NCBI GenBank assembly: GCA_025059045.1
Contig: JANXEA010000014.1
Location: 1-43,568 of the forward strand
Direction of reading: 5' to 3'
DNA length: 43,568 nucleotides
Source: Candidatus Bathyarchaeota archaeon
GTDB taxonomy: Archaea; Thermoproteota; Bathyarchaeia; Bathyarchaeales; DTEX01
The position numbers were made by a program, and so were the translations under genes. The notes under the pieces are model-generated. The model worked only from the letters and a program-made list of their open reading frames with translations. It was not told the DNA's origin and searched no databases. Each line of letters opens with the position of its first letter. The first letter of the stretch is position 1. This document shows positions 14,725-31,522 of the stretch, one piece after another.

Positions 14725-14812
14725 GCCCCGGTGGCTTAGTGGGTTAGAGCAACGGCCTCGTAACAGAATGCAAGAGAGCCGTGGATCGCGGGTTCAAATC
14801 CCGCCCGGGGCT
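14725..14812 (+). tRNA. tRNA-Thr (anticodon CGT) with a 14-base intron
   Basis: The acceptor stem is GCCCCGG (14725-14731) with CCGGGGC (14805-14811), and the discriminator is T14812. The D-stem GCTT/GAGC, T-stem GCGGG/CCCGC and T-loop TTCAAAT are intact. The anticodon stem ACGGC (14752-14756) pairs with GCCGT (14778-14782); the loop starts CTCGTA with anticodon CGT at 14759-14761. The extra bases 14763-14776 sit at the canonical 37/38 intron site. The 5' loop bases CTCG can pair three of four with CAAG near the intron's 3' end, giving a relaxed bulge-helix-bulge. CCA is not encoded. Confidence 0.93.
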
Positions 14813-31050: not shown

Positions 31051-31060
31051 ACTTAAATAT
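31051..31060 (+). promoter_or_regulatory. TATA box of tRNA-Asn
   Basis: ACTTAAATAT is centred near 31056. The predicted transcript start near 31083 lies about 30 bases before the mature tRNA start at 31114, but only three bases before an extra copy of the acceptor sequence at 31086. A second box, TTTATAAATA, lies at 31024-31033. Confidence 0.5.
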
Positions 31061-31113
31061 GCCGGGAAATGTGAGATTAATCAGCGCCGCCGAACCGAAT
31101 GTCATGCGGTTGA

Positions 31114-31273
31114 GCCGCCGTTCGCATGCGGATCTGCATGCGGACGAGAGCTCAGCCGGTAGAGCAGCGGACTCAAAAATGCGTCTTTGAGGCTGAGGCT
31201 GTTAACCCGAAGGTCGACGGTTCGAGTCCGAAGAAGGGAATACGCGTCCCTTCTGGCGAATCCGGCGGCGCCA
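31114..31273 (+). tRNA. tRNA-Asn (anticodon GTT) interrupted by three introns
   Basis: Exon 1 is 31114-31121 (acceptor GCCGCCG and T8). Intron 1 is 31122-31148 (27 bases). Exon 2 is 31149-31170 (A9, D-stem GCTC/GAGC, loop AGCCGGTA, then A-GCGG). Intron 2 is 31171-31197 (27 bases). Exon 3 is 31198-31230 (G, loop CTGTTAA with GTT at 31201-31203, CCCGA, AGGTC, T-stem GACGG, loop TTCGAGT, CCG). Intron 3 is 31231-31260 (30 bases). Exon 4 is 31261-31273 (TC, acceptor CGGCGGC, G73, encoded CCA). The spliced RNA is 76 bases; acceptor, D and T stems pair fully, the anticodon stem has four pairs plus a G27-A43 mismatch. Each intron carries a strong hairpin and a bulge-helix-bulge-like motif. The canonical 37/38 site is empty. 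Confidence 0.88.
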
Positions 31274-31274
31274 T

Positions 31275-31481
31275 CTATTTTGCTTTATATATCAATATTG
31301 CAAAGCCTGCAGTCGCCAATATAAGCCCTAAAGCAATGAAGATGGGGGCTACATTTCCAGCTGCGCTCTGGTTTATGTATGTATTGTACGCTAATGATGC
31401 GCCAATAATCATTAGTGCTAAACCGATTATCTTCTCAATGATGGTTAGTATAACCGTTCTTTCTATGCTCACTTCCCTCAC
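31275..31481 (-). CDS. Small two-helix membrane protein
   Basis: A 68-residue protein with two hydrophobic segments (about 11-31 and 43-64) separated by a short polar loop, and a charged start and end. I recognise no family. It starts at GTG 31481, 41 bases after the topoisomerase VI A stop, on the same strand, so it is probably the last gene of that unit. It ends two bases from the encoded CCA of the convergent tRNA-Asn. Confidence 0.68.
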   Translation of the reverse strand: MREVSIERTVILTIIEKIIGLALMIIGASLAYNTYINQSAAGNVAPIFIALGLILATAGFAILIYKAK

Positions 31482-31522
31482 CGCGCCTACTATGTAAGGC
31501 CTTTTTTCAAGTATAAGTTTTT

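Follow-up and report, generated by a model that had tools for sequence, protein, structure and literature searches.

The segment at positions 31114-31273 is a tRNA-Asn(GUU) gene interrupted by three BHB introns, at sites 8/9, 30/31 and 63/64, and its 5′ leader carries a further copy of the acceptor 5′ strand. With a probability of roughly 0.7, this is a working tRNA-Asn gene whose leader copy serves as a surrogate acceptor strand: it holds the tRNA 3′ end, and the true 5′ strand meanwhile builds the BHB of intron 1. The window, by which is meant the whole 43,568-nucleotide stretch that was analysed, contains the gene and lies on contig C14 of a host genome of 1.42 Mb (27 contigs, 98% complete). 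The features of the locus, from the promoter to the encoded CCA, are as follows.

31052-31059, + strand: TATA-box-like sequence CTTAAATA, read directly
31084-31092, + strand: putative surrogate acceptor strand GCGCCGCCG, complementary to 31263-31271 over 9 contiguous pairs
31110-31113, + strand: leader tail UUGA, which pairs with the D arm and thereby lengthens the outer helix of the BHB around intron 1
31114-31121, + strand: exon 1 (nt 1-8), read directly and by template-free search
31122-31148, + strand: intron 1, 27 nt, site 8/9; BHB central helix 3/4, hairpin of about 7 pairs
31149-31170, + strand: exon 2 (nt 9-30), read directly and by template-free search
31171-31197, + strand: intron 2, 27 nt, site 30/31; BHB central helix 4/4 (CAGC/GCTG), hairpin of 6 pairs
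31198-31230, + strand: exon 3 (nt 31-63) with the anticodon GTT, read directly and by template-free search
31231-31260, + strand: intron 3, 30 nt, site 63/64; BHB central helix 3/4, hairpin of 8 pairs
31261-31273, + strand: exon 4 (nt 64-73 and the encoded CCA), read directly and by folding

Two open reading frames lie close by: one of 123 aa (31126-31497, + strand) overlaps the tRNA and is probably spurious, and one of 68 aa with two likely membrane helices (31275-31481, - strand) sits between the tRNA and TopoVI-A. Elsewhere in the window, 14725-14812 is a tRNA gene, probably for Leu, to which ARAGORN assigns a four-base anticodon (gtaa) and Rfam 61.5 bits.

Removal of the three introns restores a standard tRNA, GCCGCCGTAGCTCAGCCGGTAGAGCAGCGGGCTGTTAACCCGAAGGTCGACGGTTCGAGTCCGTCCGGCGGCGCCA, with 7/7 pairs in the acceptor stem, 4/4 in the D stem, 4/5 in the anticodon stem (27-43 being G-A) and 5/5 in the T stem, and with CCA encoded. 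Each intron is framed by a BHB, with two 3-nt bulges at the junctions around a 4-bp central helix that is relaxed to 3/4 in introns 1 and 3; the outer helix of the intron 3 BHB is a single pair. These introns were fixed by a template-free search, in which BHB candidates were anchored on the T loop only and combinations of up to three introns were tested, together with shuffled controls. The top solution was exactly this set (score 33.9, against 27.9 for the runner-up), and among 200 shuffles of the flanks any solution was found in 51, the best scoring 27.0. When introns 1, 2 and 3 were each shuffled 100,000 times, the observed BHB quality was reached 0, 0 and 2 times, respectively. The original prediction, of a tRNA-Asn gene with three introns at these junctions and central helices of 3/4, 4/4 and 3/4, is therefore upheld in its gene, junctions and BHB anatomy; the leader element at 31084-31092 had escaped it. 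Both ARAGORN and Rfam missed the tRNA-Asn gene at 31114-31273. The exons lie in order within 160 bases, and a split or permuted gene was rejected on this ground. The transcript is predicted to be freed of all three introns in vivo.

In folding, the leader copy at 31084-31092 pairs with the 3′ acceptor strand with a probability of 0.99, so that 31263-31271 is a strand common to the true and the surrogate acceptor stems. Stretches of this kind, resembling GGCGCCGCCG and able to pair with the 3′ end of the same tRNA (CGGCGGCGCC), are found in the 5′ flanks of tRNA-Asn genes; they copy 7-11 nt of the 5′ acceptor strand, with a core, GCCGCCG, equal to nt 1-7. Among 142 distinct genes, the copy was present in 53/53 with an 8/9 intron and in 7/89 without (Fisher 1e-31, uncorrected for descent), as called at a duplex score of ≥19, a cut-off set after the data were seen. 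One of these seven, L324, is probably a chance match, and the copy is thus kept without intron 8/9 in five to seven genes; it is missing from most genes with the 30/31 intron alone. The association of the leader copy with intron 8/9 is strong. A class-level tree of TopoVI-A, a single gene, implies about eight changes of each trait, with well-supported independent pairs that are concordant in two cases, discordant in none and tied in two (too few for a sign test); in both tied pairs the leader copy outlasted intron 8/9. Since the independent lineages are few, descent accounts for part of the association. One genome (G031) has two tRNA-Asn genes, L158 and L159; both have a leader copy but intron 8/9 is present in just one of them, which looks like a recent loss of the intron. 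Within the host genome, 0/28 other tRNA genes have a leader copy; one apparent match, at an intron-bearing tRNA-His, was discarded as the product of a wrong start.

The intron-1 BHB uses the entire 5′ acceptor strand as well as the D arm, and its outer helix has 8 pairs, G1 and C2 included. The leader tail contributes at least two extra pairs in 44/53 of the genes that have an 8/9 intron, against 27/89 of those that lack one.

The leader copy keeps a steadier distance from the TATA box than from the tRNA. At the host locus 24 bases separate it from the TATA box, which was assigned by hand where the scripted scan took an earlier match, and the median in relatives is also 24. In 38/41 genes scored, the copy starts 21-26 nt past the end of the TATA box, although anything between 3 and 25 nt may separate it from nt 1. 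This fixed spacing places the copy at the expected transcription start, and the primary transcript would accordingly be predicted to begin at the leader element, 31084-31092. The pairing is conserved too: leader pairs with nt 69 and 72 are invariant, those with nt 70 and 71 show one change each, to G.U, and changes at the pairs with nt 67 and 68 are mostly to G.U; the copy is often extended to pair with nt 73-75. Compensatory double changes are not visible because all sampled genes with an 8/9 intron have an identical acceptor 5′ strand. Together, the TATA spacing and the conservation of pairing argue that the leader copy is functional.

With the leader included, the MFE structure of the host precursor (z -5.5) joins the copy to the 3′ end and has no acceptor stem; without the leader, the acceptor stem forms instead. 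Across the unspliced precursors of 53 genes, the probability of the acceptor stem is 0.00 and that of the leader helix 0.95, and replacement of the copy by random A/U gives a mean acceptor-stem probability of 0.61. For the host precursor the same replacement moves the value merely from 0.06 to 0.08, because pairing of the leader tail with the D arm also occupies the 5′ strand; the tail alone largely blocks the acceptor stem in the model, and with a 5-nt leader the probability is 0.48. The mismatch-bearing central helix of the intron-1 BHB is often unformed in the model, in many species, with the leader included. In addition, the nearest-neighbour model still favours the leader helix after splicing, so its displacement needs a force outside the model, such as the tertiary fold or RNase P.

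The predicted splicing machinery is of the type expected for such introns. The host genome has two EndA genes, encoding proteins of 204 and 197 residues. The longer (alpha) has crenarchaeal enzymes as its nearest PDB entries, retains the catalytic Tyr, His and Lys, and contains the crenarchaea-specific loop, whose conserved Lys (PMC6379350) aligns with A. pernix K44; the shorter (beta) lacks the catalytic Tyr and His. Judged by sequence, the (alpha-beta)2 splicing endonuclease of the host thus appears to be crenarchaeal in type and to have a broad-specificity loop, the make-up that one would look for in a host with noncanonical and relaxed BHB introns. The endonuclease type had been set as a check on the intron assignments, and the two subunit genes give the answer that favours them.

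These observations can be assembled into a mechanism. Transcription would start at the leader element (31084-31092), and the leader copy would pair with the tRNA 3′ end (31263-31271), closing the precursor with a provisional acceptor stem. This would free nt 1-7, the true 5′ acceptor strand, and the last bases of the leader to build the intron-1 BHB with the D arm, and introns 2 and 3 would fold BHBs of their own. The (alpha-beta)2 endonuclease would then cut out the three introns and a ligase join the exons, after which the freed 5′ strand would displace the identical leader strand, to be followed by 5′ and 3′ maturation. In this way the leader copy may put splicing ahead of 5′ processing. 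The predicted displacement of the leader strand by the true strand is the weak point of the scheme.

The main rival explanation is that this is an ordinary multi-intron gene, whose leader copy gives no help to the folding of intron 1 and blocks RNase P until splicing is done. Leader pairing with the 3′ RCCA inhibits RNase P in bacteria (PMC9433436), as an anti-determinant in which the 5′ leader likewise pairs with the pre-tRNA 3′ end, and the persistence of the leader helix in the model after splicing also speaks for this rival. The bacterial system adds 2-3 pairs to an intact acceptor stem, whereas here 7-11 pairs would replace the stem. Against the rival, the leader copy goes with intron 8/9, and most genes with the 30/31 intron alone have no leader copy, yet need splicing equally. 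A pure RNase P block is considered unlikely, although such a block is compatible with a surrogate-strand role.

It is very doubtful that the leader copy is a functionless relic of a duplication of the tRNA 5′ end that arrived with intron 8/9. The identity of its core, GCCGCCG, to nt 1-7 and its retention in a few genes without the intron would suit such an origin, but the copy has persisted in about 12 families while flanks and spacing changed, keeps a constant distance from the TATA box, has changed mostly in ways that keep G.U, and is frequently extended to nt 73-75, for which a duplicated nt 1-7 gives no explanation. Less credible still is a reading that takes the upstream copy for the true 5′ exon of a leaderless tRNA and puts the second copy inside a longer intron. 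The copy does sit where transcription should start, but no BHB joins it to the rest (on checking by hand, the would-be central strands are identical, not complementary), the tRNA would be deprived of its conserved U8, some species have G.U changes in the copy, and the standard junctions already give a full tRNA; the reading was rejected. A degraded tRNA-Asn copy, as the three interruptions and the failure of two gene finders might suggest, is the least probable reading of all and was likewise rejected, given the intact stems and encoded CCA of the locus, the homologous intron-bearing genes of relatives, and its standing as the sole copy found. The second, uninterrupted tRNA-Asn gene that the original prediction had named as grounds for doubt was not found in the 98%-complete assembly with three unrelated DNA patterns, and the locus is best explained as the working tRNA-Asn(GUU) gene of the organism.

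The relatives place this gene among many of its kind. TopoVI-A loci returned by the search came nearly all from Bathyarchaeota/Bathyarchaeia MAGs (top identity 84%), which sets the host outside the Thermoproteales, the setting first implied. The tRNA-Asn gene near TopoVI-A is retained in these relatives, with intron sets that overlap that of the host gene. When tRNA-Asn genes of the order and the class were aligned in spliced form, introns came out at 8/9, 30/31, 37/38, ~44/45, 48-50/51, 59/60 and 63/64, in patchy combinations; the host's set of 8/9, 30/31 and 63/64 recurs in B26-2 (L048 and L123, which are one gene). Several class-level genes with a short intron-1 hairpin escaped the template-free search and were parsed with an exon template; this gave false “introns” at 73-75 in 11 genes, apparently where CCA is not encoded, and raw intron counts are slightly high. 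A DNA pattern, CCGGCGGCGCCA, had one site in 29 genomes without a first match, and some matches to GGNCGANAGCTCAG and GGCYGANGCTGTTA were set aside as not tRNA-Asn. Introns at 30/31 are found in many families of Bathyarchaeia and those at 8/9 in about 12, and seven genes have four introns, so that multi-intron tRNA-Asn genes of this kind, initially described as rare, are common in the class. In the host itself, single noncanonical introns are predicted in tRNA-His, Arg, Glu, Met and Asp (L010, L012, L025, L026 and L213), and a partial survey found no other three-intron gene among its parsed tRNA genes.

The seven four-intron genes (8/9, 30/31, 37/38 and 48-50/51) belong to family f10 of another order (L356, L359, L360, L363, L370, L372 and L390); their central pairs are 4/4 in nearly all cases and some of their intron hairpins are short. 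One such gene is the only tRNA-Asn gene shown by G140 (93% complete), and G126 has one four-intron and one three-intron gene. A further tRNA-Asn gene, L403 (G223:C4:123340-123850), combines four clear introns with a 30-nt D-loop insertion that is possibly a fifth, and to which no canonical BHB could be assigned. The archaeal maximum has been given as three introns per tRNA gene (PMC8450103), and a text search that covered few subscription papers returned no four-intron counter-example.

Multi-intron tRNA genes with up to three introns are known from the Thermoproteales (PMC8450103, PMC4090602, PMC3218864), where Pyrobaculum and Thermofilum likewise have several small noncanonical BHB introns per gene and a broad-specificity endonuclease. 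The present genes differ in that they belong to the Bathyarchaeia, reach four introns in relatives and have a leader copy that accompanies intron 8/9, a site absent from the examples in the text of PMC4090602. In Caldiarchaeum subterraneum, the portion of the report consulted (PMC3293823) also describes several noncanonical introns per gene, patchy within the population, but in tRNA-Thr at 24/25 and 45/46 and with no leader complementarity reported there. Split and permuted archaeal tRNA genes (PMC3218864, PMC4090602) similarly use complementarity between leader and trailer to build a splice-competent fold, whereas the present gene has all its exons in cis and in their normal order, and what its leader copies is the 5′ strand. 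In the open-licence papers searched, nothing was found that describes the leader copy. The three-intron tRNA-Asn is a known kind of gene in a new class, and we think the leader copy the more novel part.

The chances are about even that a 5′-terminal surrogate strand prevents the acceptor stem from closing so that the 8/9 intron can be spliced, and then gives way to the true strand, a strand-exchange step that would have lasted across an archaeal class. With these genes, the multi-intron kind of tRNA gene reaches into a large class of uncultured archaea, and the highest number of introns in one such gene apparently rises from three to four, and perhaps to five. As such genes are missed by gene finders, MAGs may seem to be without tRNA-Asn. 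The leader copy itself suggests a simple way to splice an intron whose splice site takes up the entire acceptor strand, namely with an extra 5′ strand.
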